Shown one piece after another: positions 43,126 to 62,760 of a stretch of DNA of 64,000 bases. This DNA is from Methylocystaceae bacterium (GTDB lineage Bacteria; Pseudomonadota; Alphaproteobacteria; Rhodospirillales; Terasakiellaceae): assembly GCA_013373205.1 (NCBI GenBank), contig JABXIG010000026.1, positions 62,001 through 126,000 on the forward strand, given 5' to 3'. The translations under genes were made by a program, and so were the position numbers. How positions within the stretch are numbered: the stretch's first letter is position 1; each line of letters begins with the position of its first letter. The notes beneath the pieces are model-generated. The model was not told the origin of the DNA. It searched no databases and saw only the letters and a program-made list of their open reading frames with translations.

Positions 43126-43719
43126 TTACAACGTGCTGGCGCATCCTCTGCCTCGGCCGTTTCCATTTCTACGTCCATGACCATGACCATGACCACGTCC
43201 GTTGCCACATCCACAGCTATGACCATTTCCGTTTCTATGTTGGTTTGCGTTTCCACGTCCTTGTCCCTGTCCGCTTTCATTTGTGCATCCGCATTCACAT
43301 CCTTCAGCAGTTAGGGATGAGGAACGTTCAAGGGCGCGCTGAAAGGCGGGCAGGTGGTTTTCCTGAGAAGCACGTTGCAGGTTTAGCAAGACTCGTTGCA
43401 CATCCGGGTAATCCGATGTTTGTGCCAAGAGCCGGTCATACATGTCGGCATTTTCGATTTCCGCTTCTACGGCAAGCTTGACGCAATCTTCCAATTTTTC
43501 GGGCAGTTTGATCTTCTCGGGCCAGCGATCTTTGGGAATTGCAAAGCCATATCGTGCAAATAATTGCTCTAACGCTTTGGCATGGCGGTCTTCGGCATGC
43601 ACGATATTGGTAAAGGGGCGCACATCACCAAAGGTTTCTAAAACAGCCTGATAGGTTGCGCGCGCTTTATATTCATCATCAAGCGCTTCACATAAGACAT
43701 GTTCAAGGGAATTACTCAT
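43126..43719 (-). CDS. Ferritin-like DUF2202-type protein with Cys/Gly/His/Asn-rich low-complexity tail
   Basis: EALDDEYKARATYQAVLETFGDVRPFTNIVHAEDRHAKAL ferritin-like helices; tail GCECGCTNESGQGQGRGNANQHRNGNGHSCGCGNGRGHGHGHGRRNGNGRGRGC. Confidence 0.7.
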   Translation of the reverse strand: MSNSLEHVLCEALDDEYKARATYQAVLETFGDVRPFTNIVHAEDRHAKALEQLFARYGFAIPKDRWPEKIKLPEKLEDCVKLAVEAEIENADMYDRLLAQTSDYPDVQRVLLNLQRASQENHLPAFQRALERSSSLTAEGCECGCTNESGQGQGRGNANQHRNGNGHSCGCGNGRGHGHGHGRRNGNGRGRGCASTL

Positions 43720-46116: not shown

Positions 46117-46171
46117 AAAAATTAATTGACATTTCAATTAAAAAATCAAATTATAAAAATATCGATATTTT
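46117..46171 (+). promoter_or_regulatory. Operator/promoter module copy 1 (upstream of iac block 1)
   Basis: TTAATTG-N6-CAATTAA (46122-46141) overlapping a TTGACA, plus palindrome AAAATATCGATATTTT (46156-46171); 53/55 nt identical to 56386-56440. Confidence 0.75.
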
Positions 46172-46235
46172 GGTAAGGCGAAATTCACCATAATTTTGCC
46201 AGTCACCGGAAAGTAGGTATGAGGAGGAATTTGAT

Positions 46236-47039
46236 ATGAATGAGACGATCAAACGTTCGTTTAAAATGTCGCATGATAATGCAGACACATTCATTTCGTT
46301 TTGCCTTTCCTGCAATTCAGAGATGTCAGCCAAACGATATCAAAATGTTTTTTCTGCGAACACTCAGATGGAAAGCATGTCCAAATTTGTGTGTTCTCAA
46401 TTGAATAGTTTTGCTTTCGCGCCAAGCCCGGAGCTGTTGTTAACGTCTACATATTCTGGTGTGTGGAGTTTCTGTTCAACAGATCGAACCTACGGATCAT
46501 CTGCCAAAACCGGGAAAGGTCTTGTCCAGGATGCACTTTCTTGCGGGCGATTTTTCAATGATGAGTTGAAATTTGATGAATTGGGGGCTGTTGCTCTTCT
46601 TAATGTGGGTGTGCCCTTTGCGATAACAAAAGCAGTGCGCGAGACTTTGCAGCGTTGTTCTATCAAAGAAAATAAAGCTGAATTTTGCACGCTTCCTTTC
46701 GATTATTTTTATCAAAGTGAAGATTTTTGCCCGCAGTTCATGACGCGTCTTTATGGACAGCAAATTGATCATGCATTGGAAGAAAACGATGTGCTCGTTC
46801 TTCCTGCTTTACCTGACTTGCCTTTGGATTTGAAACAAGCACAAGCAGGAAAAGTTTCAGCACAGGAATACCTATTCATTTCGCCAATTTATCACTCGGG
46901 AAATCCGGTTGTTGCGATGCCAATTTCTCCTATTCGAGGAAAGCCGATGAGTATTCTTCTTGTGGGAAAAAAGGGGGGGGATGCGACCTTATTGAAGATC
47001 GCGGAACTTTTTGGCGCTCGCATTCTGGCGAGTTTCTAA
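46236..47039 (+). CDS. Amidase-signature-family-like protein lacking the catalytic N-terminal half
   Basis: C-terminal part MTRLYGQQIDHALEENDVLVLPALPDLPLDL..NPVVAMPISPIRGKPMSILLVGKKGGDATLLKIAELFGARIL is amidase-like; no GGSSSGS or TGGS/TAAS motif present. Confidence 0.5.
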   Translation: MNETIKRSFKMSHDNADTFISFCLSCNSEMSAKRYQNVFSANTQMESMSKFVCSQLNSFAFAPSPELLLTSTYSGVWSFCSTDRTYGSSAKTGKGLVQDALSCGRFFNDELKFDELGAVALLNVGVPFAITKAVRETLQRCSIKENKAEFCTLPFDYFYQSEDFCPQFMTRLYGQQIDHALEENDVLVLPALPDLPLDLKQAQAGKVSAQEYLFISPIYHSGNPVVAMPISPIRGKPMSILLVGKKGGDATLLKIAELFGARILASF

Positions 47040-47070
47040 GAACTAAAATTTTGTATGTTGGAGTCTTTAT

Positions 47071-48219
47071 ATGTCACGATATGAAATAGATAAGACCAAA
47101 TGGGGTGGGGAAGAGAAGTTTAACAAGTTGTTAGACGATATCCGTGAAAACCGTTTGGAATTTGAAAAACAGAGACATCTCAGTCAAGAGATTGTAGATC
47201 AATTCAAGGATATTGGTGTCTACCGTGCGCTCGTACCTTCCCATTGGGGCGGGGACGAGAAGTCACCCGTAGACTTCTTGTTAATGGTCGAAGAAATTGC
47301 CAAAGCCGATGGCTCGGCTGGTTGGGTTGCAAGCTTTGGTATGAATCCGGCCTACCTGTCAGCCCTTCCTCCACAAACCGTTGAAAAAGTTTGGGAAGAT
47401 GGTCCGGACGTGGTTTTTGCTGGTGGCATTTTCCCTCCGCAACCTGCTGAACTAACTGAAGAAGGCTATAAAGTAAACGGTCGTTGGCAATTCGGCAGTG
47501 GCTGTATGGGGGCCGATGTTATTGGTGTCGGCATCATGCCTGACAATGGTGAATCTCTGCCGCGCATGGCCGTTATGCCTCGTGAAAAAGTGAAAATCGA
47601 AAAAACCTGGAACGTTATGGGCATGGTCGGAACAGGCAGCCATGATCTTGTCGTTGAAGATGTAATTGTTCCCGAAGAGTGGACATTTGCCCGTGGCGGC
47701 AAACCACAGGTCGACGCGCCGTTTTTCCGTTATCCTAGCTTGGCTTTTGCCGCCCAGGTTCTCGCCGTTGTTACATTGGGTCTTGCTGAAGAAGCACTGC
47801 GTGTGGTGCAGGAGGAAGCTGCTGGCCGTAAGTCCGTGACGGGCGCACCAAATTTGGGTGAGCGTGCTTATGCTCAAATCGATATCGCAAAAGCGGAAGC
47901 AAAAGTTCGTTCCTCACGCGCCTTCTTCTATCAGGCTACTGAAGAAGCTTGGGAAGTGATTGCAGCGGGCGGTAAACCAACAGATCATCAGACAAGTATG
48001 ATCAGACTTGCGGCGACGAACCTGACACACGAATGTGCCGAAGCTGTGCGTATTTGTTATCAGATGTCAGGCATGACAAGTACTTATAACGATCATCCTC
48101 TTTCTCAAATTTATCGTGATACCGCCATGTGTACGCAACACGCGTTCATGGGTGCCATCACATATCAAAATGCAGGCGCTATGTTCTTTGGTCATAAGCC
48201 TCTTCCCGGATATCTCTAA
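47071..48219 (+). CDS. iacA: Acyl-CoA dehydrogenase-like flavin-dependent monooxygenase (IacA-like)
   Basis: Group D flavin monooxygenase features: EIAKADGSAGWVASFG, W-x-FGSGCMGADVIGVG, TWNVMGMVGTGSHDLVVEDVIVPEEW; gene context. Confidence 0.72.
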   Translation: MSRYEIDKTKWGGEEKFNKLLDDIRENRLEFEKQRHLSQEIVDQFKDIGVYRALVPSHWGGDEKSPVDFLLMVEEIAKADGSAGWVASFGMNPAYLSALPPQTVEKVWEDGPDVVFAGGIFPPQPAELTEEGYKVNGRWQFGSGCMGADVIGVGIMPDNGESLPRMAVMPREKVKIEKTWNVMGMVGTGSHDLVVEDVIVPEEWTFARGGKPQVDAPFFRYPSLAFAAQVLAVVTLGLAEEALRVVQEEAAGRKSVTGAPNLGERAYAQIDIAKAEAKVRSSRAFFYQATEEAWEVIAAGGKPTDHQTSMIRLAATNLTHECAEAVRICYQMSGMTSTYNDHPLSQIYRDTAMCTQHAFMGAITYQNAGAMFFGHKPLPGYL

Positions 48220-48234
48220 GTTAAAGGTGAACAA

Positions 48235-48594
48235 ATGTCGGAAAAATTACGAGTATTATTCTGCATTTCCGTAAAGCAAAACTTTATGGATGCGACACAA
48301 GAAGAACAACTGGCTGTATGGGGCGCTTTTAGCTCCATGATGAATGGCATGAATACCATGGATGGTATGGAGATGCTGGGCATGTTGGATGATGACCGCA
48401 GTATGGTTGGTTCCTCTGTTGGTTACCCCTTTACCGCATATTTCATGGCGGATTGCGATGACTATGACACGGTCGTTAAGGCCTGCGATCTCTTCCGTAC
48501 AACACCTGTTGGCGATGGTGTTTATAAGCTTTGGAAATATTGCGGTGTAGAAACACGCATTGGTCGGGCTCTTCAGCCACCTGCGCAGGATTAA
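48235..48594 (+). CDS. iacB: IacB-like small protein
   Basis: 119 aa ORF immediately downstream of iacA-like gene; assignment mainly by synteny. Confidence 0.55.
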   Translation: MSEKLRVLFCISVKQNFMDATQEEQLAVWGAFSSMMNGMNTMDGMEMLGMLDDDRSMVGSSVGYPFTAYFMADCDDYDTVVKACDLFRTTPVGDGVYKLWKYCGVETRIGRALQPPAQD

Positions 48595-48598
48595 TTCC

Positions 48599-49132
48599 AT
48601 GTCAGAGAAAGTGACTGTCAAGCAATTGGAACAGCGTCTGGCACGTTTTGAGGCACAGGAAATAATTCGTTCGTGTATGAACAAATACATGGCGATTTGT
48701 GATGATCTAGATGCCAAAACCGATCTGGATGAGCTCATGGGATTGTTTAGCGATGAAGCTGTCTGGGAAGGGGTCGGGCGCTATGCCAAATCCTTCGGGC
48801 GCTTGGAAGGTCAGTCCGAAATTCGTGCGATGTTCGCAAAATATACGGTTGAACCTTCGCATTTCAGTTTGAACGTTCACTTTCTGACTAATGAAGAAAT
48901 TGAGGTTTTGGAAGTGGGGGAGGAAGATCAAGCAATCGGAAACTGGCTGCTTCTTCAAACTTCAACATTTGCATCGGGTAAGTCGCAATTAAGCTGCGCG
49001 AAAATTACCGCCCGCTTTGAGAAAGCCAAAGATGGTGAATGGCGAATAGCCCACTTTCAAACAGAACGAAAATTCAGTCGACCAGTGGTTGACCCATGGG
49101 AGGCGGAAGCTGATCTGCCTGTTCCAGAATAA
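48599..49132 (+). CDS. iacI: SnoaL-like/NTF2-fold protein (IacI-like)
   Basis: QEIIRSCMNKYMAICDDLDAKTDLDELMGLFSDEAVWEGVGRYAKSFGRLEGQSEIRAMF; start moved to ATG 48599. Confidence 0.6.
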   Translation: MSEKVTVKQLEQRLARFEAQEIIRSCMNKYMAICDDLDAKTDLDELMGLFSDEAVWEGVGRYAKSFGRLEGQSEIRAMFAKYTVEPSHFSLNVHFLTNEEIEVLEVGEEDQAIGNWLLLQTSTFASGKSQLSCAKITARFEKAKDGEWRIAHFQTERKFSRPVVDPWEAEADLPVPE

Positions 49133-49156
49133 GATAGTTAATTAGGAGATTTACGA

Positions 49157-50452
49157 ATGACTAAATCCAATGCTGAAAAATGCAGAAATGCACCGGTTCG
49201 ACATGTCGATGTTGAGCCTCTCGTAAAAGAAGATAAGGTGCATACTTCATTATATACTGATAAAGACTTGTTTAATGCTGAAATGCAGAAAGTCTTTACA
49301 AAGACTTGGGTATGGGTTGCACATGAAAGTGAAGTCGGCGAGAAAAACTCATACAAGACAGCATATATTGGTTTAGAACCTGTCATTGTAAGCCGTGACC
49401 GTAAAAATGAAATCCACGTTCTCTTGAACCGCTGCCGTCACCGTGCGGCTACAGTTTGTGAAGGTAAACGCGGTAAAGCAAAAAGCTTTGTCTGTCCTTA
49501 TCACGGTTGGGGATATTCTTTGGATGGTGAACTGCGTGCAGTTCCAAAAGAAGAAGAGTATGAAGGCGTTTTTGAAAAGAAAGATTTCCCTCTCATAAAA
49601 GTTCGTCATGAGACATATCAGGGTATGATCTTTGCAACTTTGAACCCTGAAATCGAACCATTGGAAGATTTCCTTGGCGGGGCAAAGAAGTGGATTGACT
49701 TGTTTATGAAACAGTCTGGCGGCTATCCAATGAAAGTGTTGGGCGACCATCGTTTCCGCTTCCCGGGTAACTGGAAAATCCAGCTGGAAAACACAACGGA
49801 TGCCTATCACTTCCCTGTGGTTCACAAATCATTTGTGTCTTCACTGGATGATGAAACGAGTGAAGTGTTTGACTTCCTTGATGGCGAAGGTTTTGTTGAA
49901 GATCTTGGTAATGGGCATTCTGTCATGGTTATGATCCCTGAGTTGGTCGACCTGGAAGAAAACCTTGATGCGCCCATTCCCGGTCGTTTTGAGAGCTTTG
50001 CAGAAGAGTTGCGCAAAGAAGGTCACAGCGAAGATAAAGTTCGTCGTTTAGTCCGTGCTGTTGGCGGTTCTGGCTTTAACTTGAACCTGTTCCCGAACGT
50101 TGCATGTTCTATGGCTTTCTTCCGTGTATTACGCCCGATTTCTGTTGAAGAAACCGAGATCCACCACGTTGCAATTGGTGGGGAAGGTGCACCTGCTTCC
50201 TTTAACCAGCTTCGTATGCGCCTTCACGAACACTTCCAAGGCCCAATGGGTTTCGGTACGCCCGATGATGCAGAAGCTTGGGAGCGTGTGCAGAAAGGTT
50301 CTTATGCAGGCTATGATGATGAGTGGATCCTTGTTAACCGCGGCCAATCAAAATTGAAAACAAGTGAGGACGGTAACGTTCAAGGTGCTGTGTGTTCTGA
50401 AACAGGCATGCGGGCTGCTTACCAGCAATACAAAAAAGTAATGACTGCTTAA
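49157..50452 (+). CDS. iacC: Rieske aromatic-ring-hydroxylating dioxygenase large subunit (IacC-like)
   Basis: Rieske C-x-H...C-x2-H (NRCRHRAATVCEGKRGKAKSFVCPYHGWGYSLDG); mononuclear Fe motif DAYHFPVVH. Confidence 0.75.
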   Translation: MTKSNAEKCRNAPVRHVDVEPLVKEDKVHTSLYTDKDLFNAEMQKVFTKTWVWVAHESEVGEKNSYKTAYIGLEPVIVSRDRKNEIHVLLNRCRHRAATVCEGKRGKAKSFVCPYHGWGYSLDGELRAVPKEEEYEGVFEKKDFPLIKVRHETYQGMIFATLNPEIEPLEDFLGGAKKWIDLFMKQSGGYPMKVLGDHRFRFPGNWKIQLENTTDAYHFPVVHKSFVSSLDDETSEVFDFLDGEGFVEDLGNGHSVMVMIPELVDLEENLDAPIPGRFESFAEELRKEGHSEDKVRRLVRAVGGSGFNLNLFPNVACSMAFFRVLRPISVEETEIHHVAIGGEGAPASFNQLRMRLHEHFQGPMGFGTPDDAEAWERVQKGSYAGYDDEWILVNRGQSKLKTSEDGNVQGAVCSETGMRAAYQQYKKVMTA

Positions 50453-50472
50453 TTCGAATTAGTGAGGAAAAA

Positions 50473-50946
50473 ATGACTGCAGAACTTATCAACTTGGTTA
50501 GCTTCATTAATTTAGAAGCAGATATGCTGGATTTCCACGAGTACGACCAATGGCTCGATTTGTGGGATGAAGATGGCTACTACATTGTGCCGATCGATGG
50601 CACGACTGAAGACTATGCCAACACTCTGAACTTTGCATATGATGATGCTGCAATGCGTCGCCTTCGTGTGCAGCGTCTTGTTAGTGGCGAAGCTGTTTCC
50701 ACGGAGACAACAGCCAAAACGATCCGTAACCCATCACGTTTTCGTGTTCTTTCAACTGAAGGCGACGTAACGACAATTCGTTGTGCACAGATCATTAACG
50801 AAAACCGACACGGTAATCTTCGTTATTACCCCGCAGACGTAACTTACAAGCTGCGTCGTGACGGTGATAGCTACCGTATTTTGGAGAAAGTGATCCGTTT
50901 GCAAAATGCAGATAATCACCTCGCCAGCATCGGGTACATTTTGTAA
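50473..50946 (+). CDS. iacD: Ring-hydroxylating dioxygenase small subunit (IacD-like)
   Basis: FINLEADMLDFHEYDQWLDLWDEDGYYIVP; C-terminal beta-subunit pattern; follows large subunit. Confidence 0.75.
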   Translation: MTAELINLVSFINLEADMLDFHEYDQWLDLWDEDGYYIVPIDGTTEDYANTLNFAYDDAAMRRLRVQRLVSGEAVSTETTAKTIRNPSRFRVLSTEGDVTTIRCAQIINENRHGNLRYYPADVTYKLRRDGDSYRILEKVIRLQNADNHLASIGYIL

Positions 50947-50957
50947 GGGATGGTGAA

Positions 50958-51698
50958 ATGACTGGAGCTTTAGTAACAGGTGCAGCTCAAGGTCTGGGCA
51001 AGGCAATTGCCCAAGGATTGTTTGAGGCTGGTTATAGTGTTGCCTTAACCGACAAGAGATTTGATGCTGTTGTTGAAACGGCAAAGGAAATTTCACCGAC
51101 TGGAGAGCGCGTGTGTGCGCTCTCCCTTGATGTCACTAAAAAAAGTGACTTTGAAGAACAGTTGAAAGTTGTGGTCGAGAAATTTGGTCGCGTTGATATT
51201 CTGGTCAACAACGCAGCAATGACGCCGACCACACCGGTAATGGAAATTACGCCGGAAGAATTCGATCTTGTCACCACAATCAATCAGAGAGGTACGTTCT
51301 TTGGTTGTCAGGTGTTCGGTCAGCATTTTGCAGATCAGGGGTATGGTCGCATTATCAATATGGCATCGCTGGCAGGTCAGAATGGGGGGACCGCATCAGG
51401 GGCACATTATGCTTCAAGCAAAGGCGCGATCTTCACAATGACGAAGATTTTCGCCCGACAACTGGCAAATGATGGTGTCACGGTGAATGCAGTTGCTCCT
51501 GGGCCAATCGACTTACCGTCTGTGCGTGCTGCTGTCCCGGCTAAGAAACTGGAACAGATTATCAACGATATGATTCCGGTGAAAAAGCTGGGAAGTGCGT
51601 CCTTTATTGCAGACATGGTTGTGATGTTGGCAAGTCCCGAGGCTGAAGCTGTAACCGGCGCAAGCTGGGATGCAAATGGCGGAATTTTTATGAGATAG
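50958..51698 (+). CDS. iacE: SDR-family oxidoreductase (IacE-like)
   Basis: TGAAQGLGKAIAQGL nucleotide-binding motif; NNAA; YASSK catalytic motif. Confidence 0.72.
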   Translation: MTGALVTGAAQGLGKAIAQGLFEAGYSVALTDKRFDAVVETAKEISPTGERVCALSLDVTKKSDFEEQLKVVVEKFGRVDILVNNAAMTPTTPVMEITPEEFDLVTTINQRGTFFGCQVFGQHFADQGYGRIINMASLAGQNGGTASGAHYASSKGAIFTMTKIFARQLANDGVTVNAVAPGPIDLPSVRAAVPAKKLEQIINDMIPVKKLGSASFIADMVVMLASPEAEAVTGASWDANGGIFMR

Positions 51699-51727
51699 GA
51701 GCGCTCCTTTAAAGGGAGGTAGCAAGA

Positions 51728-52684
51728 ATGACTAACCCACAATTCACAGTAAAAATTGCTTCGCGAGAAGTGCAGGCCGATAGTGTCGTCTTGCTTGATT
51801 TTGAAGATCAGCAAGGAAAACCATTGCCGAAATTTGATGCCGGTGCTCATATTGACGTTCATGTCTCTGACGACATTATTCGTCAATATTCTCTGAGCAA
51901 CTCACCACAGGAAACATCACGGTATCGCATTGGGGTCTTGAATGATCCTCAATCGCGTGGTGGATCAAAATCAATCTTTGAGAATTTCGAAGAAGGTCAG
52001 ATCGTTACCATTTCTGAACCTCGCAATCATTTTCCTCTGAATTTTGATGCATCTCATAGCATTTTAATCGGTGGCGGCATTGGGATTACGCCAATGCTGG
52101 CGATGGCATATGCTTTAAAAGCCGAAGGTAAGTCGTTCGAAATTCACTATTGCTCGCGTACACGAGACAAGGCCGCTTTCCTTGACGAGTTGGAGAGCAA
52201 TTTTGGTGATGTAACGACATTGCATTTTGATGACCTTGGTGAAGATCAAATGATCAAACCAAAGACCCTTTGCGAAAATTCTGTCAATGGTACCCATGTT
52301 TATGTGTGCGGACCATCCGGATTTATGGATTGGGTGATTAGTGAATCTAAAGCGGCAGGCTTGGCAAGTGATCAAGTCCATTTTGAGTACTTCAACGCAG
52401 ATGTAGAAACTTCAGGAACAGCTTTTGAAGTTTATGCTCAGGCCAGTGACGTGACTGTTCAGGTTGCTGAAGACCAGACAATTATTGATGCCCTGTTACA
52501 AGCAGGTATCAAGGTTGAGAAATCTTGTGAGCAGGGGGTTTGCGGCACGTGTATTTGCGATGTCGTGGAAGGCATTCCTGATCACAAGGATAAGTTCCTT
52601 ACGGAAGACGAGCGTGAAGACAATGATCAGATTGTGACGTGTTGTTCGCGTGCAAAAACGGACCGTTTGGTCCTCGATATTTAA
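51728..52684 (+). CDS. iacF: Ferredoxin-NAD(P)H reductase component with C-terminal plant-type 2Fe-2S domain (IacF-like)
   Basis: RQYSLSNSP FAD motif; GGGIGITPMLAMA; KSCEQGVCGTCICDVVEG..VTCCSRA. Confidence 0.75.
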   Translation: MTNPQFTVKIASREVQADSVVLLDFEDQQGKPLPKFDAGAHIDVHVSDDIIRQYSLSNSPQETSRYRIGVLNDPQSRGGSKSIFENFEEGQIVTISEPRNHFPLNFDASHSILIGGGIGITPMLAMAYALKAEGKSFEIHYCSRTRDKAAFLDELESNFGDVTTLHFDDLGEDQMIKPKTLCENSVNGTHVYVCGPSGFMDWVISESKAAGLASDQVHFEYFNADVETSGTAFEVYAQASDVTVQVAEDQTIIDALLQAGIKVEKSCEQGVCGTCICDVVEGIPDHKDKFLTEDEREDNDQIVTCCSRAKTDRLVLDI

Positions 52685-52774
52685 TGAAAACTTGGGAAGG
52701 TTTCAGAGCTAAGACATTTCGTAAGTAACATTTGTGTTTTTGCGAAATGATAAAGTCAATATTTAGGAGATGAT

Positions 52775-53791
52775 ATGAAAAAACTCATGACCACACTAAA
52801 GGCGGCGATTGTATTAAGCATAGTTGCCATCGCACCAGTAAAGGCGGAAACAGTTCTTACGTTATCAAGCTGGCTGCCACCAAGCCATCCGGTTGTTAAA
52901 GATATGATCGTGCCGTGGACGGAGCAGGTTAAAGAAGCAACAGAAGGCCGCGTTAGGGTCCAAATTCTGGCAAAAGGCTTAGGTCATCCTAAAGTTCACT
53001 TCGATGTTGCACGTAACGGGTTAGCTGATATCACTTATTCTGTTCATGGTTACACACCGGGTCGTTTCTTGCTGACCAAAGTGGCTGAGTTCCCGTTGTC
53101 AGGTAATAGCTCTGAGACATTGTCCACCGCTTATTGGAAAGTTTATCAAAAGTATTTCATGAAAGCCGATGAGCATAAAGGCACACAACTTCTTGGCCTG
53201 ATGACACATGGTCCGGGTCACATCTTCACGTTAGATAAGGAAGTGACATCTCTGGAAGATTTGAAAGGCTTGAAAATCCGTATTGGTGGTGGTCTTGTCA
53301 ATGATGTTGCCATGGATATGGGTGTTTCTCCACTTTTGAAACCAGCCCGTGAAAGTTATGAGCTTTTGTCACATGGTGTTGCTGATGGGACTTTTCTTCC
53401 AACGGAATCCGTTGTTGCCTTTAAAGTTGATAATCTGTTGAAACACGCAACACTTGTTCCAAACGGTTTGTACAACATCAGCTTCTTCCTTGTCATGAAC
53501 GAAGGTACGTTTAAGCGCCTGTCAAAAGCAGATCAGGACGCCATCATGAAAGTGTCCGGCCTGAATTTTGCCAAGATTGCTGGTAAAGCATGGGATGCAG
53601 CCGATGCAGCAGCAATGGCGAAAATGAAAGAGCAAGGGAACAAAATCATTGAAGCGCCTGCTGAGTTAGTTGAGAAAATCTCAGCGATTAGTTCAAATTT
53701 GGAAGCCGCATGGATTAAAGAGGCTTCTTCAAAGGGCGTCGATGCAAAGGCTGCATTGGCTGAGCTGAGAAAGTTAACGAGCGCTCAATAA
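52775..53791 (+). CDS. TRAP transporter substrate-binding protein (DctP)
   Basis: Signal peptide; DLKGLKIRIGGGLVNDVAMDMGVSPLLKPARESYELLSHGVADGTFLPTESVVAF. Confidence 0.88.
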   Translation: MKKLMTTLKAAIVLSIVAIAPVKAETVLTLSSWLPPSHPVVKDMIVPWTEQVKEATEGRVRVQILAKGLGHPKVHFDVARNGLADITYSVHGYTPGRFLLTKVAEFPLSGNSSETLSTAYWKVYQKYFMKADEHKGTQLLGLMTHGPGHIFTLDKEVTSLEDLKGLKIRIGGGLVNDVAMDMGVSPLLKPARESYELLSHGVADGTFLPTESVVAFKVDNLLKHATLVPNGLYNISFFLVMNEGTFKRLSKADQDAIMKVSGLNFAKIAGKAWDAADAAAMAKMKEQGNKIIEAPAELVEKISAISSNLEAAWIKEASSKGVDAKAALAELRKLTSAQ

Positions 53792-53832
53792 ACCCCTGTT
53801 GGTTTATACACACACTAGAAGGAGACAAGGAG

Positions 53833-54381
53833 ATGACCCTGTTGCCATTGCGAAAGTTAACCATATCAATTTTGGAGTTCCTGTTTGAACGGGTACTGGC
53901 CTATACCGCTGCAATCATTATGTTTCTTATGATGATTTTTACCTTAATTGATGTGATCGGTCGTGACTTCTTTAATTCACCTCTCCCGGGTGGCTTTGAG
54001 GTGACGGAACTTTTTCTCTCAACAATCATTTTCCTTGGTCTCCCGATGGTTACTGCCGAGGCCTCGCATGTTGACGTCGATATTTGTGATCCAACCATTC
54101 CTGAATGGATCAAACCCTACCAGGATATCTGTATTGGTTTAGTCAATATTTTTTGCTTTAGCATCATGTCTTGGATGTTGTTCAAAAATGCCGTTCAGAC
54201 ATATGAATATCAAGATACAACTGCGATCCTTCAATTCCCGTATTTTATTTTAGTCTCTGTTATGGCGACGATGACGTCACTGGCAACAGTGTCACTTGTG
54301 GCAATGCTGTTCATGACGCGGGGGCGAACCCTCTTTAAGGGACAATCAGAAACGGAAGAAAAGAAAGAAGAACAGTCATGA
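53833..54381 (+). CDS. TRAP transporter small permease (DctQ)
   Basis: Four TM segments; VIGRDFFNSPLPGGFEVTELFLSTIIFLGLPMVTAEASHVDVDI. Confidence 0.9.
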   Translation: MTLLPLRKLTISILEFLFERVLAYTAAIIMFLMMIFTLIDVIGRDFFNSPLPGGFEVTELFLSTIIFLGLPMVTAEASHVDVDICDPTIPEWIKPYQDICIGLVNIFCFSIMSWMLFKNAVQTYEYQDTTAILQFPYFILVSVMATMTSLATVSLVAMLFMTRGRTLFKGQSETEEKKEEQS

Positions 54382-55694
54382 TTGAGAGCTTAGTTGGGTT
54401 TGCCGTTTTACTCTTTTTAATCTTTGCGCGTGTCCCCTTGGCTGTGGCGATGGGTGTGGTTGGTGTTGCTGGTTTTAGTTATATTCAAACCCATATATTT
54501 GAAAACCCCAGAGGCATGGATGCTGCTTTAAGCATGGTTTCACAGGTTGCGTTCGATACCAGCCTGTCATATGGCCTTTCGGTTGTTCCTTTATTTATTT
54601 TGATGGGTAACCTGATTACAGAATCAGGCATTTCTGCCCAGTTATTTCGTGCATCAAATGCCTTTTTAGGCCATATGCGTGGCGGTTTGGCATTGGCAAC
54701 TGTCGTGTCATGTGGTGCTTTTTCTGCCGTTTGTGGAAGTTCACTGGCCACAGCAGCAACAATGTCTAAAGTCGCCATGCCATCAATGCGTAAATATAAT
54801 TATGCGGATGGTTTAGCAAGTGGTTCCATCGCAGCCGGGGGCACATTAGGTATTCTGATCCCACCAAGTGTAATTCTTGTAGTCTATGGATTGTTAACTG
54901 AGACCAGCATTGGTGAGCTGTTTATGGCAGGCTTGATACCGGGACTTCTGGGGATTGTACTGTATATGGTTGCAATTGCAGTAACAGTTCGCATGGATCC
55001 AAGCCTTGGACCGAAAGGTGAAAAATCAACATGGAAAGAGCGTTTGATCGCATTTCGTGATGTATGGGCAATCGGGTTACTGTTTGTGATTGTCATGGGC
55101 GGTATTTATCTGGGTATATTTACACCGACAGAAGCCGCAGGGATTGGGGCCTCGGGTGCTTTCTTCCTAGCCCTTTTGAAACGTAAGCTGACTTTCAAGG
55201 GTATTCTGGGCTGTTTGATCGGTGCTGTTCGGACAACTTCGATGCTCTTTGCCTTGGTGATCGGTGCTGAGTTATTTTCAAACTTTATCAATTTGGCAGG
55301 CATGCCCGGTCAGTTACGAGACATGGCATTGGAATTTTCAGTCAATCCGTTTTTAGTGATCGTTTGTATTCTCGCGATTTATATGCTGCTGGGCTGCGTG
55401 CTTGAAAGCATGTCAATGATCTTGTTAACGGTTCCTGTTTTTTATCCTGTCGTTCAGGCCTTAGGGTTTGATCTGGTCTGGTTTGGCATCGTTGTTGTCG
55501 TTGTCACAGAAATTAGTTTGATTACACCCCCCGTTGGTATGAATGTTTTTGTTCTGAAAACAGTGATGCCTGACGTTCCTTTGAAAACGATCTTTAAAGG
55601 TGTCGCACCTTTTTGGGTCGTTGACATCATTCGCTTGATCCTTGTGACAAGCATTCCTGCACTAGCTTTGTTTCTGCCAAGTCTGGTGGGATAA
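54378..55694 (+). CDS. TRAP transporter large permease (DctM)
   Basis: SGISAQLFRASNAFLGHMRGGLALATVVSCGAFSAVCGSSLATAATMSKVAMPSM; overlaps dctQ by 4 bp. Confidence 0.92.
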   Translation: MIESLVGFAVLLFLIFARVPLAVAMGVVGVAGFSYIQTHIFENPRGMDAALSMVSQVAFDTSLSYGLSVVPLFILMGNLITESGISAQLFRASNAFLGHMRGGLALATVVSCGAFSAVCGSSLATAATMSKVAMPSMRKYNYADGLASGSIAAGGTLGILIPPSVILVVYGLLTETSIGELFMAGLIPGLLGIVLYMVAIAVTVRMDPSLGPKGEKSTWKERLIAFRDVWAIGLLFVIVMGGIYLGIFTPTEAAGIGASGAFFLALLKRKLTFKGILGCLIGAVRTTSMLFALVIGAELFSNFINLAGMPGQLRDMALEFSVNPFLVIVCILAIYMLLGCVLESMSMILLTVPVFYPVVQALGFDLVWFGIVVVVVTEISLITPPVGMNVFVLKTVMPDVPLKTIFKGVAPFWVVDIIRLILVTSIPALALFLPSLVG

Positions 55695-55703
55695 GGAGAG
55701 ACC

Positions 55704-56186
55704 ATGTTTCCAACAGTGAAAAATATTTTATGCGCAACTGATTTAGCAGCTGAATCAAACAAAGAACTTGAATGGGCGATCAGCGAGGCCTCTCGGCATA
55801 GTGCACAGTTACATGTTGTCTATGTTGAACAAGTTAGTCGTGGCGTTGGAAAAATGATGGGCAACTATATGGGCGATGAGGAACTTAAGAAAATGCGTCA
55901 TGAGGGGTTTAAGTTTCTTCAAAAAAATTTGCAGGCACAAGTCGATAAGGCGCTGGAAAATATGAAGCAGTATAATGTTGAATTATCTGCGCCCTCGATT
56001 TGTTCTGTTCGGGAAGGTTATACACCAGAAGAAATTACGAAATATGCACAAGAGTTTGATGTCGAGTGTTTGGTAATTGGCACTCGTACACGTAATCATT
56101 CTGCATTAGGTCGTTTTTTCCTTGGGTCTACAGCTCAAAATATTCTTCAATTGTCAACCCGACCTGTCATGGTTATTCCACTCTAA
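55704..56186 (+). CDS. Universal stress protein (UspA family) linked to TRAP operon
   Basis: NILCATDLAAESNKELEWAISEASRHSAQLHVVYV; VIGTRTRNHSALGRFFLGSTAQNILQLSTRPVMVI. Confidence 0.88.
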   Translation: MFPTVKNILCATDLAAESNKELEWAISEASRHSAQLHVVYVEQVSRGVGKMMGNYMGDEELKKMRHEGFKFLQKNLQAQVDKALENMKQYNVELSAPSICSVREGYTPEEITKYAQEFDVECLVIGTRTRNHSALGRFFLGSTAQNILQLSTRPVMVIPL

Positions 56187-56385
56187 TAGGGCCGCTATTT
56201 GTATCTAGTCGCATGACCAGTTTTGCTGCTTTTGATTGTTGATGCATACTTTGATTCCTCTGGGATATCGAAAGCCTTAACTTATTGTTCTGTTCCTTAA
56301 GTGTTGTAAGTGAAATAGAATTTTAGAAAAGTTCCAAATTATCAATAGCTTAGTTACATGCTCAAAAAGAAAGATTTTTTAATTA

Positions 56386-56440
56386 AAAAATTAATTGACA
56401 TTTCAATTAAAGAATCAAATTATAAGAATATCGATATTTT
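56386..56440 (+). promoter_or_regulatory. Operator/promoter module copy 2 (upstream of iac block 2)
   Basis: TTAATTG-N6-CAATTAA (56391-56410) overlapping TTGACA (56395-56400), palindrome AATATCGATATT (56427-56438). Confidence 0.75.
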
Positions 56441-56569
56441 TCAGGGTATGTCTGGCATGGGATATCAACAGATTAGAAGCAGGGTCATAAACCTGACAAG
56501 CAACAGGAAACATTAAATAAATTTAGTCAATTACGATGTTCAAGATAGAGAGCCGCAAGGAGGCATAAA

Positions 56570-57070
56570 ATGTCAGATATTGAATTCGATCCAAAAGATT
56601 TTCGTTTTGCTCTGGGGCAATTTCCAACTGGTGTGACGATTGTAACAACCAGAACAAAAGATGGTGAACCCATTGGCGTGACGGCAAGCAGTTTTAATAC
56701 CGTGTCGATGGATCCACCGTTGATCTTATGGAGTGTTGATAAAAAGGCATTCTCGGCAGAGACATTTAGCGAAAATGAATATTTTGTCGTGAACGTACTT
56801 GCTGATTCTCAAGTGGCGACTTCAAATCGTTTTGCAAGCCGCGGGGAAGATAAATTTAAAAATATTGCTTACGAAAATGGTTTGGGCGACAGCCCTGTAA
56901 TTGAAGGTTCTATTGCACATTTCGAATGCAAGAACTGGAGCGTTTATGAAGGCGGTGATCACTTTATTATCGTCGGTGAAGTGCAAAAGTATCAATACAA
57001 TAAAAACCAAAGCCCGTTGTTATTCTCTCAAGGGAAATATGCGGTCTCCAGCGCACATCCTGATTGCTAA
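56570..57070 (+). CDS. iacG: Flavin reductase (IacG-like; HpaC/HsaB type)
   Basis: FRFALGQFPTGVTIVTTRTKDGEPIGVTASSFNTVSMDPPLILWSV; GDHFIIVGEV. Confidence 0.75.
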   Translation: MSDIEFDPKDFRFALGQFPTGVTIVTTRTKDGEPIGVTASSFNTVSMDPPLILWSVDKKAFSAETFSENEYFVVNVLADSQVATSNRFASRGEDKFKNIAYENGLGDSPVIEGSIAHFECKNWSVYEGGDHFIIVGEVQKYQYNKNQSPLLFSQGKYAVSSAHPDC

Positions 57071-57079
57071 GGGGATTAA

Positions 57080-58357
57080 GTGATGCAGCAACATATGGAC
57101 TTGAACCAGCTTTCGCTATGCGAGGCTTTAATCAAAATTGAAAAAGGTGAGACAAGCGTCCGCCAAATTGTAGATGCCTGCTACAACCGCATAGAAGAAC
57201 GAGAAGAAAAAGTTGGTGCCTGGCAATATTTGGTGCCGCGCGAAGAGTACATTAAAAAGTTAGTAGCTCACGAACATTTCTATAAAAATTCCATCTTAAA
57301 AGGGCTGCCCGTCGGTATTAAAGATATCATTGATACTAAAGGGATGCCGACCGAAATGGGGTCTGAAATTCATAAGGCTCGTTTTCCTTTAAATGATGCA
57401 ACGTGCGTCAGTCGTTTAAAACAGCTTGGTGCTGTCGTCATGGGTAAAACGGTTACAACGGAGTTTGCCTATTTCAGACCCGGAAAAACCGCAAACCCGC
57501 ATAACCTGAAGCATACACCGGGTGGATCTTCAAGCGGTTCTGCCGCTGCTGTTGCAGATTATATGGTTCCTGTTTCGTTGGGCTCACAGACAGCGGCATC
57601 TGTTATTCGACCCGCTGCTTATTGTGGGGTCACCGGATATGTTGCAACACGTGGCGAAATGTCATTGCGTGGCGTTCAGCCTTTGGCTCAGTCTTTAGAT
57701 TCATTGGGGATGTTCGCCAGAAACACAGCTGATATTCGACTGTTAAGGAAGCTTTTTCTGGCAGATGATCTGGTTTTACCCGAAATCCCTAGTGATTTGA
57801 AATTTATTCAGGTCACAGGTTCGGATATTGGTGATTGCACACCCGAAATGGATGGCGTTATGGAAATCGCTGCAAGTACTTTACGCGAAAAAGGGTGCGT
57901 TGTGCTTTCGGGTTCATTTAATGGATATCTCAAGCAATTGGTTGAGCTTCATTCAACGATTATGGCTTTTGAAGCTGCGCGAAATATGACCGAAGAACGT
58001 GAAAGCCCCGAGAAATTGAGCGTACAATTTTCTGACCTCTTGGAGACGGGCCTTAAGATTTCTTATCAGGAATACCTTAATGCACTGACACGTGTAGATG
58101 AGATTGAAACTTGGCTTGTTGCTGAATTCGGTGACGCTGTCGCTTTTCTCGCGCCGGCTTCGCCAGGTGCAGCCCCTGAAGGCTTAAGTGCAACCGGTGC
58201 ACCACATATGAGCAGACCATGGCAGGTTTTAGGACGTCCTGTTGTGAGCACGACGATTGCGAAAAATGACCTTGGATTGCCTTTAAGCATTCAGCTCGTC
58301 GGTAAACGTCATCAGGATGACCTTTTGCTTGCTGTCAATGAGGTCTTAGCGAGTTAG
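57080..58357 (+). CDS. iacH: Amidase signature family hydrolase, complete (IacH-like)
   Basis: GIKDIIDTKG (Lys), TPGGSSSGSAAAVA, GSQTAASVIRPAAYCGV. Confidence 0.75.
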   Translation: MMQQHMDLNQLSLCEALIKIEKGETSVRQIVDACYNRIEEREEKVGAWQYLVPREEYIKKLVAHEHFYKNSILKGLPVGIKDIIDTKGMPTEMGSEIHKARFPLNDATCVSRLKQLGAVVMGKTVTTEFAYFRPGKTANPHNLKHTPGGSSSGSAAAVADYMVPVSLGSQTAASVIRPAAYCGVTGYVATRGEMSLRGVQPLAQSLDSLGMFARNTADIRLLRKLFLADDLVLPEIPSDLKFIQVTGSDIGDCTPEMDGVMEIAASTLREKGCVVLSGSFNGYLKQLVELHSTIMAFEAARNMTEERESPEKLSVQFSDLLETGLKISYQEYLNALTRVDEIETWLVAEFGDAVAFLAPASPGAAPEGLSATGAPHMSRPWQVLGRPVVSTTIAKNDLGLPLSIQLVGKRHQDDLLLAVNEVLAS

Positions 58358-58369
58358 GTGAGGGGATAA

Positions 58370-58672
58370 ATGAAGAAATATATAATCACAGTACTTGGCC
58401 AAGATCGAACGTACCCTTGCTATGAAGGGCAGCGATTACTTCATGCGATTGAAGGGGCTGGTGGTGATTGTATTAGAGTTGGCTGTCGTGAAGGTGGCTG
58501 TGGCGTGTGCCGGGTGAAGATACACAGTGGCGAATATGAAACAGGCATCATGAGCAAGGCGCATATCGGTGAAGAAGAAAAAAAACAAGGGCTTGTTCTC
58601 AGCTGTCGGGTCTATCCGAAAGGTGATCTAACTGTTGAACCTGCACCAAAATATAAGAATAGACAGGAGTAA
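58370..58672 (+). CDS. Plant-type 2Fe-2S ferredoxin (XylT-like)
   Basis: RVGCREGGCGVCRVKIHSGEYETG..LSCRVYP; directly upstream of extradiol dioxygenase. Confidence 0.8.
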   Translation: MKKYIITVLGQDRTYPCYEGQRLLHAIEGAGGDCIRVGCREGGCGVCRVKIHSGEYETGIMSKAHIGEEEKKQGLVLSCRVYPKGDLTVEPAPKYKNRQE

Positions 58673-58675
58673 AAA

Positions 58676-59599
58676 ATGGCATTAACTGGGATTTTGCGAC
58701 CTGGACTCATCCAGCTACGTGTGACGGATCTGGAAAAGTCTGTAGAACATTATGTTGAACGCATTGGTCTTGACGAAGTCGGACGTGATGGGGATCTGGT
58801 TTATTTAAAAGGCTGGGATGAATTTGATCATCATTCAGTCGTTTTGCGCAAAGCAGAAACTGCAGGCATGGACTTTTTTGCCTTTAAGGTTGATAGCGAC
58901 GAAACGCTGGAACATTATCGCAAACGTATTGAAGATGCAGGTGTTGAAGTCATCGATGTTGCTGCAGGTGACCAACCGGGTTTTGGTCCGCGAATTGCTT
59001 TTAAAATTCCGACAGGCCACCGTATTGAACTTTATGCTCAGGTTGAGCGCGCAGCCTATCACCCCCCTGTTACCAATCCGGAAATTGTCCCGCGGGAACC
59101 TCGTGGCATGCATGCCAGTCGTTTTGATCATGGCCTTCTTTATGGTCCAAATGTAAATGAGACCAAGGATTTCTTTGAAAATGTTCTGGATTTCTCGACA
59201 GCGGAACAAGTGGATGGCGAGGATAATTCGACACAAATCGCGATCTGGCTGACCTGTTCCAATAAGGCGCATGATATTGCGTTCGTCGATTATCCGGAAG
59301 AAAACAAGTTTCACCACATCGCCTTCATGCTGGAAAACTGGAATGAAATCGGTCAGGCGGCTGATATTATGTCACGCCACAATATTTCAATTGATGTTGG
59401 GCCGACGCGGCATGGTATTACGCGCGGTCAAACGATTTATTTCTTTGATCCATCGGGCAACCGTAACGAAGTCTTTGCGGGCGGTTACCAATATTACCCG
59501 GACAACCCCACTCGCAATTGGACACCGGACCAGCTGGGTAAAGGGATTTTCTATTACGAGCGCAAGCTTAACGATGCCTTCCTGTCCGTGGTGACGTGA
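58676..59599 (+). CDS. Catechol 2,3-dioxygenase (type I extradiol)
   Basis: Two VOC repeats; Fe ligand contexts RFDHGLLYG, KFHHIAFMLENW, NRNEVFAGGY. Confidence 0.88.
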   Translation: MALTGILRPGLIQLRVTDLEKSVEHYVERIGLDEVGRDGDLVYLKGWDEFDHHSVVLRKAETAGMDFFAFKVDSDETLEHYRKRIEDAGVEVIDVAAGDQPGFGPRIAFKIPTGHRIELYAQVERAAYHPPVTNPEIVPREPRGMHASRFDHGLLYGPNVNETKDFFENVLDFSTAEQVDGEDNSTQIAIWLTCSNKAHDIAFVDYPEENKFHHIAFMLENWNEIGQAADIMSRHNISIDVGPTRHGITRGQTIYFFDPSGNRNEVFAGGYQYYPDNPTRNWTPDQLGKGIFYYERKLNDAFLSVVT

Positions 59600-59668
59600 T
59601 GGCTCTTTAATAGGTTCAATTAGCTCTCCCTAGGTAATTGATCTCCCTCGAATGGTCAATTACATCTT

Positions 59669-59704
59669 GCGCCCTTGAGCCGACCCCTCAAGGGCGCCTT
59701 TTTT
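59669..59704 (+). terminator. Rho-independent terminator at the end of the iac-like operon
   Basis: GCGCCCTTGAG-ccgaccc-CTCAAGGGCGC perfect 11-bp stem followed by C and six T. Confidence 0.9.
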
Positions 59705-59716
59705 CTGGATAGAATA

Positions 59717-61825
59717 ATGTACTTTGGAATTAGACTAAAACTCATTACCTCATTTGCTGTGATCGCACTCATTACGCTTATATCCTCCTTTGTGAGTTTA
59801 TACGCATTCAAGGAATTCAGTCAGTCTCTAGAAATGGTTGTTGACGAAAAAGTTCCTGTCATGTCGAAGGCTTCTGATTTGAAAGGAAAAGTGGATAGTG
59901 CGCTATTTTCTTTGTCCTTGATTGTACAGAATTCTGTAAAGGATAAAGAAGCTGCATGGCTCACCGTAAATGATGACGTACATCATGCCAAAGTGTTGGT
60001 AACGGACCTGGAAAAGCTTAAGGCAGATGAAGACATTATAACGCAGATTGATACGCTCATTCATGCTTTGGAAGATCAGATACTGGAAATCAAAGATCTA
60101 TTATCACGCTCTGATGACGTGAAGAAAATAAGTGCAGAGACATTAGCGAAGGCCGAAGAGTTTTCCAGTTATATTCATGAAACGGTTATTTCTAACCTTG
60201 ATATTGAGCAACAATTGACTCAGCAATTGGTCAATTCGTTGAATAATGAGTCCGGTCTGCCGAATGAAAAAATTGCAGAGCTTACCGGACAGATCAAAAA
60301 GCTGTTTGCTCTAAATTCAATCTTGATGGCAAATGATGGGGCTTATGTTGCCCTGAATGAACTTTTCTCTTTGCAAGATGTTCGACAAATCAAAGCAAAG
60401 GCGTTTATCGCTAATCTTAACATTTCAGACTCTATGGAAAATACGTCGCTTTTCACGGATCAATTAGGCGAATTGTTCAAATCCATTGAAACGAAAAATA
60501 AGGAATATTTTGACGAAGAAAATGGTTTGGTCGCTGTCCGTGAAAATGAAATTTCTATTCAGGGACGGATTAAGGAAGTTTCGGAGCAGAACTTTCAGCT
60601 TTCACAAGTCTTAGCATCTTTAACATCTGAGCTTGTTACAAATGCCAAGGAAAATGTCATGACATCCTCGATTGAAGTGAAGCAGACGGGTGATTTAATC
60701 AATCAGGTCATGTGGACGGTTATGATTGCCAATTTCCTGATCGCTCTTGCATTGATCTATTTCTTTGCGATCAAGCATTTGAATGGTCGATTAAGCCGAC
60801 TAAATGGTGTCTTGGTAAGTCTGTCTGAAGGCGACCTTGATGTGGAAATTGAGGATAAATACAACGATTCAATCGGTAGAATGATGAAAACGGCTGAAGT
60901 GTTCAGGCAAAATGCACTGAACGTTCAACAATTACGTCGCGAGAAAGAGGAGCAGGAGCAACAGGCGCAAGAGGAACGCAAGGCTAGCCTCCTTCAGTTG
61001 TCTAATAATTTTGAAAAACAAGTCAGTGGGTTTTTGAAAGGTGTGGTTCAGGCCGGGGAAGGTCTGCAAAAAGAGGCTGAAAACATGCAGTCTTTATCTT
61101 TGCAAACGAAAGAGCTGGCAGATCAGGTCTATGCAGCCTCAGATGATGCGCAGCAGAATGTGGAAACTGTGGCAAGTGCAACGATCGAACTATCCACTTC
61201 TATTCGTTCAATTGAAGAGAATATGGATAACTCACATAGTGTCTTTAACAATGCAGTCGATGCGGCAGTTCAGTCCCAAACTAGCATTAATGGCCTTGCC
61301 GGAATTGGATCGCAGGTCTCTGATATTGTTAATCTGATTGGCGATATATCCGAGCAGACGAACCTATTGGCCTTAAATGCAACGATTGAGGCGGCGCGCG
61401 CCGGGGAAAAAGGTAAAGGTTTTGCCGTTGTCGCAAGTGAAGTGAAAAGCTTAGCCACACAGACGGGGCAAGCCACAGATAGTATTGCAGTACAGATTAA
61501 GGAAATGAACCAGGCAACAGATACTTCTGTCGGGGTCATACAGAATGTTACAGACTTGATTTCCCAGATTAATGAACTTAATGAAAGTTCGGTTGTAGCC
61601 ATCAAGGAGCAATCTTCTGTGACTTCAGAAATTGCGGAAAGTGTCTCAAACGCTGCGAAGGGAACACAAGAAGTTCGCAACCATATTCAAGGCGTGTTTG
61701 AATCTGCAAATTCTACAGATCAAACAGCGCAAAAGGTTGCCGAGGCCAGTATCCACGTTCAAGAACAATCGGTTTCACTTCAAAAAGCAATCGAGGCCTT
61801 CTTGCAGAGCATCCGCAAGGGATGA
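59717..61825 (+). CDS. Methyl-accepting chemotaxis protein with helical-bundle periplasmic sensor and HAMP
   Basis: Two TMs; [39 protein letters not shown]; start moved to [10 protein letters not shown] (59717) because the upstream start lies in the terminator. Confidence 0.88.
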
Positions 61826-61859
61826 TTGACTGTCCAATGGAAGTTTGAATAGGGAATTT

Positions 61860-62714
61860 TCAGACATTTCTTTTGTTCAGCTTCCATTGGGCCAATCCTG
61901 ATCCCACAAGAATGACGGTGCCTAGTACAAAATGACTGGTGAGACTGTCTTCAAAAATAAGAACGCTTAGAACAGTGGCAAAGAGAAGTTGCGCGTATAA
62001 AAAGGGCGAGAGAGAAGAAGCTGATGAAAACCCAAAAGCTTTTATCAACGCAAAATGTCCCAGAGTACCGAGGCTACCTATTAGAACCATAAAAAATATT
62101 GTGTTTGGGTCCGGATTGACCCATGTGAACGGCATAACAAAGCTAAGTCCTATTGAGCCAATCGCGGTTGAATAGAACATGGTTGAAGACTCTTTGTCTG
62201 TGGTTTGAAGAACACGAGTCATGAGTAGATAAGTCGCCAACATAAAAGCGCAAAATAGCGGAGATAGCGAGATCCATTCGAAAGCGCTCGCGCCTGGTTG
62301 AATGATAATAAGGACACCTGCAAATCCGCATAATACAATCAGGATATTACCAACTGTAATTGGTTCTTTTAGAATAACCCCGGACAATATAGTAACCAGA
62401 ACGGGTGCGAAAAAGAAAATAGCGGTTGCATCACTGAGTGAAAGATACTGAAAGACCAGATATGCACAAGCCGTAGCTGAAATAAGGCTTAGGCTACGGA
62501 TGAATTGCAAAACGGGTTTATGACAGTATAGAAAATTTGTCCCTTCCCGTCGCCACAAGAAGACTGTGATTAAGGTGCTTTGGACAAAATACCTGGCCCA
62601 CAGGACTTGTTCGACAGGCAGGAATTGCCCCAGATATTTGGCGCAGGCGTCCATGCTTGCCATACAGAAACATGCACATATTACAAGAAAGATTGCTTTT
62701 GATTTTGGGGTCAT
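61860..62714 (-). CDS. DMT-superfamily (EamA) transporter
   Basis: Ten hydrophobic segments; ILSGVILKEPITVGNILIVLCGFAGVLIIIQPG. Confidence 0.85.
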   Translation of the reverse strand: MTPKSKAIFLVICACFCMASMDACAKYLGQFLPVEQVLWARYFVQSTLITVFLWRREGTNFLYCHKPVLQFIRSLSLISATACAYLVFQYLSLSDATAIFFFAPVLVTILSGVILKEPITVGNILIVLCGFAGVLIIIQPGASAFEWISLSPLFCAFMLATYLLMTRVLQTTDKESSTMFYSTAIGSIGLSFVMPFTWVNPDPNTIFFMVLIGSLGTLGHFALIKAFGFSSASSLSPFLYAQLLFATVLSVLIFEDSLTSHFVLGTVILVGSGLAQWKLNKRNV

Positions 62715-62760
62715 GGGCGTTGATCTGGTTCCTAATTTTCATGCTCATAAAGATAGGCAA

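Follow-up and report, generated by a model that had tools for sequence, protein, structure and literature searches.

A probable indole-3-acetate degradation locus with TRAP uptake genes and a meta-cleavage ending in an alphaproteobacterial draft genome

Organization of the locus

Indole-3-acetate (IAA) is the plant hormone auxin and, in the sea, a signal between algae and bacteria. The DNA considered here, called the window, is a stretch of 64,000 nucleotides from the draft genome of a Methylocystaceae bacterium (assembly GCA_013373205.1, contig JABXIG010000026.1, positions 62,001 to 126,000), and it carries what is very probably an iac-type IAA catabolic locus ending in meta cleavage. Open reading frames and family profile matches place 16 co-directional genes on the + strand at 46236-59599; coordinates are those of the window unless another sequence is named, and all features of the locus lie on this strand.

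The run opens with a degenerate amidase gene of 267 codons (46236-47039), a probable decayed iacH, and continues with iacA, encoding a flavin monooxygenase of acyl-CoA-dehydrogenase fold (47071-48219; assigned by profile match, synteny and tree). It is followed by iacB (48235-48594), which matches no Pfam or NCBIfam family and is conserved in iac loci, and by the SnoaL-like iacI (48599-49132). Next come the large and small subunits of a Rieske oxygenase, iacC (49157-50452) and iacD (50473-50946), a short-chain dehydrogenase, iacE (50958-51698), and a reductase for IacCD with FAD/NAD and 2Fe-2S domains, iacF (51728-52684). A tripartite ATP-independent periplasmic (TRAP) transporter is then encoded by dctP for the solute-binding protein (52775-53791), dctQ for the small permease (53833-54381) and dctM for the large permease (54378-55694), adjoined by a gene for a UspA-family protein (55704-56186). 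The last group comprises iacG, a 166-residue flavin reductase and partner of IacA (56570-57070), an iacH-type amidase of 425 residues (57080-58357), an XylT-like 2Fe-2S ferredoxin (58370-58672) and, 3 bp further on, copy 1 of a catechol 2,3-dioxygenase (C23O; 58676-59599). A strong intrinsic terminator with an 11-bp stem and a T run (59669-59697) lies 3' of C23O.

All genes named in an earlier, sequence-only reading of this DNA are present in the order and on the strand it gave. Intergenic gaps mostly run from -4 to 41 bp, the exceptions being 90 bp before dctP and 383 bp before iacG, and the order of the iac set is kept in more than 15 other genomes; together these rule out a chance grouping, and matches to profile hidden Markov models with conserved synteny exclude chance or misread genes. 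A 56-bp block that precedes the first gene (46117-46172) is repeated before iacG (56386-56441) with 53 of 56 bases identical. Because this near-identical promoter block stands ahead of both 46236 and 56570, the locus reads as at least two transcription units.

Assignment to the iac family

The gene content reads as iac-like. Homologues of iacA, B, C, D, E, F, G and I are clustered, syntenic with other iac loci and 46-83% identical to them: 46-67% with the plasmid locus of Acinetobacter baumannii DS002 and 61-83% with that of the Rhodospirillaceae metagenome-assembled genome (MAG) BRH_c57, the order being kept in both. The arrangement iacABICDEF..G..H is that of Marinomonas. The sequence-only reading had proposed the iac assignment and had named, as the outcome that would speak against it, grouping with other monooxygenase or Rieske systems; when this was examined, IacA and IacC grouped with iac loci. 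IacA is nested in a clade of iac-locus IacAs (support 99/97), with HsaA/HpaH-like homologues from related genomes branching apart, and IacC is 62-83% identical to the IacCs of iac loci versus 30-32% to BenA/XylX-type enzymes, its Rieske (CxH-CxxH) and mononuclear-iron (D-x2-H-x4-H) motifs being intact. An origin from steroid- or phthalate-type Rieske systems or from HsaA is excluded by these identities and the IacA tree.

The two amidases differ in state. The first gene does have an amidase match, as the sequence-only reading had it, but the match is limited to the last ~85 residues (the C-terminal third, 38% identical to BRH_c57 IacH), and none of the Lys, Gly-Ser and Ser motifs of the catalytic triad signature is found in it. 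Since it occupies the position where relatives carry a full-length IacH and has lost the signature, it is most likely a decayed iacH, the role of which has most likely been taken over by the motif-complete amidase after iacG. The P. putida-type copy would thus be decayed, and the second amidase is of a different type, near that of Marinomonas in size. The Marinomonas iac amidase has ~429 residues and is distinct from P. putida IacH (PMC11373566); the window enzyme matches it by size and position, a likeness drawn from its description and not from its sequence.

All three TRAP subunits, P, Q and M, are present. The window DctP falls into one group with gammaproteobacterial iac-linked DctPs and that of BRH_c57 (81/87), outside of which lie the host's own DctP paralogues, the best of them 33% identical to it. 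It retains the conserved carboxylate arginine motif (Arg169), and a role of this TRAP arginine for carboxylates is described in PMC4646407. Import of IAA by this system is plausible.

Ring cleavage and the lower pathway

C23O copy 1 scores 422 bits against the equivalog cut-off of 320 for catechol 2,3-dioxygenase, and the metal ligands and active-site residues of XylE are conserved in it (compared with 1mpy). Because the ferredoxin gene lies directly before C23O and its product shares 47% identity with the pWW0 ferredoxin encoded immediately ahead of that plasmid's C23O, it is best read as an XylT-type protein that would reactivate C23O rather than belong to the electron chain of IacCDF. A profile search for catechol 1,2-dioxygenase (TIGR02439) gave no match in the host draft genome; the same search picks up weak or remote intradiol relatives in other genomes.

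The sequence-only reading placed the remainder of the meta pathway outside the window. That is correct, yet the pathway is encoded in the genome, on a contig called C49 here. It includes 2-hydroxymuconate semialdehyde (HMS) dehydrogenase (892 bits, cut-off 693), 4-hydroxy-2-oxovalerate aldolase (563 bits, cut-off 286), a 4-oxalocrotonate tautomerase of 59 residues, an acylating acetaldehyde dehydrogenase, and a hydratase and a decarboxylase that both score below their equivalog cut-offs. With C23O, the dehydrogenative branch of meta cleavage is complete in the genome. The direct joining of iac to extradiol cleavage suggested earlier finds a genuine C23O at that place, and a meta rather than an ortho route is strengthened by the missing TIGR02439 match together with the full lower pathway.

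The contig that carries the window (C27) breaks off 3.1 kb past it, partway through the 5' part of a second C23O; the 3' end of such a gene opens C49. The copies are 99% identical, with 5 differences over 376 bases of the 5' part and none over the 120 of the 3' part, and the identity ends at the gene edges. Since C23O ends match at both contig ends and a PF00903 search found no other C23O fragment in the genome, C27 and C49 almost certainly adjoin.

The 7.1 kb between the C23O copies hold genes for a chemoreceptor, an EamA transporter, a second TRAP set (DctPQM) and a GntR-FCD regulator. This segment spans 59717-64000 of the window and C27 beyond it (L042, 3860-8568) and is flanked by direct C23O repeats; recombination between them would remove it and join iac straight to the lower operon. 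The chemoreceptor was called at 59675-61825 with a TTG start that falls inside the C23O terminator, and an ATG near 59717 is the likelier start. Adjoining the meta operon on C49 (L056, 6822-16678) is an aerobic benzoyl-CoA-type cluster with genes for benzoate-CoA ligase, 3,4-dehydroadipyl-CoA semialdehyde dehydrogenase, enoyl-CoA hydratases, hydroxyacyl-CoA dehydrogenase and thiolase.

Promoter elements and a candidate regulator

Two elements stand out in the promoter block before the first gene: O1, TTAATTGACATTTCAATTAA (46122-46141), overlapping a -35-like TTGACA, and the palindrome O2, AAAATATCGATATTTT (46156-46171). Their counterparts before iacG lie at 56391-56410 for O1 and, for the longer form of O2 with one mismatch, at 56425-56440. 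Of 21 related iac loci, 19 have O1, as TTARTTGACANTTCAA, in the same position, 52-178 bp ahead of the first iac gene, compared with 0.095 hits per locus in shuffled sequence. Across the 4.09-Mb genome, the 14-bp O2 palindrome, AAATATCGATATTT, is matched exactly at two sites only, one in the iac promoter and one in that of the second C23O and lower operon.

At the end of the lower operon lies a MarR-family gene (C49 5843-6412, minus strand). The best Protein Data Bank match of its product is 7kua, P. putida IacR (5e-29), followed by 7l19 and 7l1i, all three deposited with a study of the auxin-related MarR regulator IacR (PMC9613470). The protein does not read as IadR-type, the IadR structure 7kfo matching far more weakly at 1.5e-9. 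The genome thus has an IacR-type regulator, encoded away from iac, where the meta operon ends, and its gene is closely preceded by a 16-bp half of O1. Because O2 is common to both promoters, the IacR-type gene sits in the lower operon and half an O1 precedes it, the iac and lower operons look like one regulon. We infer binding of IacR to O1, and the identity of the regulator at O2 is likewise a matter of inference.

Recurrence in other genomes and transfer

The joining of iac to TRAP and C23O, which the sequence-only reading had put forward for this locus, recurs in independent genomes. Its complete version is found in Pontibacterium sinense N1Y112 (L060/L116), where iac, TRAP and the entire lower pathway form a single same-strand run in the order iacH-A-B-I-C-D-E-F-dctPQM-usp-ferredoxin-C23O-HMS dehydrogenase-hydratase-acylating aldehyde dehydrogenase-aldolase-decarboxylase-iacG. 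Amphritea, two Marinobacterium species and an Oceanospirillales MAG likewise carry C23O within the iac-TRAP cluster. Pseudomonas oryzagri has a ferredoxin-C23O-lower operon just upstream of iac, and TRAP genes adjoin iac in Sagittula, Thioclava and Martelella as well. HMS dehydrogenase is above cut-off in 18 of 23 iac genomes and catechol 1,2-dioxygenase in only 2. Neither enzyme is above cut-off in three of the genomes (G072, G076 and G077, with loci L070, L074 and L075).

The iac-linked C23Os fall in two lineages. The window enzyme groups with a Sphingobium C23O (99/97), and the others are of XylE type. A single common origin was rejected (p-AU 2.2e-10 in the approximately unbiased (AU) test); as the tree includes two long branches, the claim of two lineages rests on this test as well as on the tree. 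Accordingly, C23O would have become linked to iac on at least two occasions or, once linked, have been replaced a single time.

RpoB identities of 70-72% to Alphaproteobacteria versus 57-58% to Gammaproteobacteria assign the host to the former class and exclude a gammaproteobacterium, to which the nearest iac loci would have pointed. In five congeners, the search for IacA returned nothing beyond weak acyl-CoA-dehydrogenase matches. The window IacA is 69-75% identical to marine gammaproteobacterial IacAs versus 46-48% to those of Sagittula and Martelella, and its nearest grouping is with BRH_c57 and Azospirillum. The iac genes were likely acquired horizontally across classes.

Two further observations concern iac proteins elsewhere. 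IacG has 304-334 residues in many relatives (L116 17407-18348; L059, L061, L064, L067, L071, L072, L076 and L079), with a C-terminal extension of winged-helix, MarR-like appearance, compared with 166 residues in the window. Bradyrhizobium loci (L080-L082, L085-L091, L093-L099) contain a lone IacA homologue, 48-54% identical; the flanks examined (up to 10 kb) showed no further recognisable iac gene.

Proposed pathway and alternative explanations

In the route that these genes suggest, DctPQM would import IAA or a close aryl-acid. By homology with the enzymes of the iac literature, IacA, supplied with flavin by IacG, and IacE with IacB would convert IAA to dioxindole-3-acetate, and IacCD with its reductase IacF, IacI and the amidase would carry this on to catechol. 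Extradiol cleavage by C23O would yield HMS, the ferredoxin, on the model of XylT, re-reducing active-site iron of inactivated C23O. The adjoining operon would supply all steps from HMS onward, with HMS dehydrogenase, 4-oxalocrotonate tautomerase, decarboxylase, hydratase, aldolase and acylating acetaldehyde dehydrogenase leading to pyruvate and acetyl-CoA. The iac and meta operons would probably be co-induced through the common operators and the IacR-type MarR protein.

Several points weigh against this account. Pathway function is a prediction from genes; the join of C27 and C49 is a deduction from contig ends; the closest solved DctP relative is not the IAA-binding protein; and C23O could also serve catechol from other sources. 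The missing catA weighs heavily without being conclusive, the genome being a draft in which a 16S search of the assembly found none.

The most durable alternative, itself unlikely, is that the iac-like genes act mainly on another indolic or aryl-acetic acid, which the TRAP system imports, with IAA a minor substrate. In its favour, the functional amidase belongs to a type other than P. putida IacH, and the nearest solved relative of the window DctP is 4p56, much closer than 4pgn and 4pgp, which we take to be the entries for Dde_0634. Dde_0634 is reported to bind IAA (PMC9973260); a literature search found no ligand of 4p56. Against it stand the complete iac set, the IacR-type regulator and the iac-type operator, as well as the Marinomonas loci, which share the core order and the divergent 429-residue amidase and degrade IAA (PMC11373566).

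It is less probable still that catechol from iac is cleaved by an undetected ortho enzyme and that C23O serves another pathway, such as that for the aromatics handled by the C49 genes. Such a view would fit the cat genes that follow in described iac systems and the benzoate-CoA ligase-type cluster on C49, but the genome has zero TIGR02439 matches, C23O copy 1 sits in the iacG-iacH unit ahead of the terminator, and O2 ties the iac and meta promoters, with the same linkage in other genera. A chance neighbourhood of the C23O, ferredoxin or TRAP genes, or an error of assembly, can be set aside almost entirely: the 99%-identical C23O repeat does break contig C27, but copy 1 lies in continuous contig with unique flanks, an alternative joining would close the 7.1-kb spacer as a separate circle, and independent genomes show the same gene associations.

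Relation to described systems

The iac-type locus ending in meta cleavage would thus be a known pathway in new wiring, with TRAP uptake and meta cleavage, conserved in marine bacteria and bearing evidence of co-regulation. A search of the open-access literature, subscription reviews not included, yielded no earlier account of iac joined to TRAP or to meta cleavage, and the iac comparators described there all pass catechol to the ortho (beta-ketoadipate) pathway. The window shares with Pseudomonas putida 1290 (iacABCDEFG-R-HI, catRBCA nearby) homologues of IacA-I, an IacR-type regulator, catechol as presumed product and a chemoreceptor gene nearby (PMC6624763); it differs in extradiol cleavage, TRAP uptake, the amidase type and an iacR located apart from iac, close to the meta operon. 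Enterobacter soli LF7 (iacHABICDEFG-mfs-pcaIJD-catBCA), as cited in PMC8383072, has the same HABICDEFG order, IacR control, and transporter, iac and ring cleavage in one locus, but with a major facilitator superfamily transporter and ortho (cat/pca) enzymes in place of TRAP and meta.

Marine Marinomonas sp. MWYL1 and NFXS50 have the order iacABICDEFG-(lldD)-iacH ending in the ~429-residue amidase; the MWYL1 cluster is reported to be functional and NFXS50 to use IAA as sole carbon source, but, unlike the window, they have ABC-type transporter genes and a catechol 1,2-dioxygenase pathway (PMC11373566). The xyl lower operon of TOL plasmid pWW0 (xylT-xylE-xylG...) likewise has a ferredoxin directly before C23O and, downstream, HMS dehydrogenase, hydratase, acylating aldehyde dehydrogenase and aldolase. 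In the window genome, by contrast, the arrangement is split, ferredoxin-C23O ending iac and a second C23O heading the lower operon; an HbpS-like gene follows C23O, no XylF-like hydrolase was recognised in the run, and the predicted substrate is IAA instead of toluates. P. sinense shares iac, TRAP, Usp, ferredoxin, C23O and the complete lower pathway, there in a single run, with the window genome, and differs in an XylE-lineage C23O, an intact iacH in front and a longer IacG placed last.

A broader proposal, held with moderate confidence, is that these loci represent a horizontally moving marine module from auxin to pyruvate and acetyl-CoA, with an obligate link of iac to meta rather than ortho cleavage, a TRAP system of its own and a regulon with common operators, C23O having been joined by selection at least twice from different lineages. 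The recurrent iac-TRAP-C23O architecture predicts a second route of auxin mineralisation, probably common in marine Oceanospirillales. It also points to specific proteins that may be the missing IAA importer, to a putative regulon with two operators, and to a natural example of one ring-cleavage step added more than once.

Upstream of the locus, at 43126-43719, the window encodes a ferritin-like protein with a low-complexity tail rich in Gly, His, Asn and Cys that is perhaps metal-binding.

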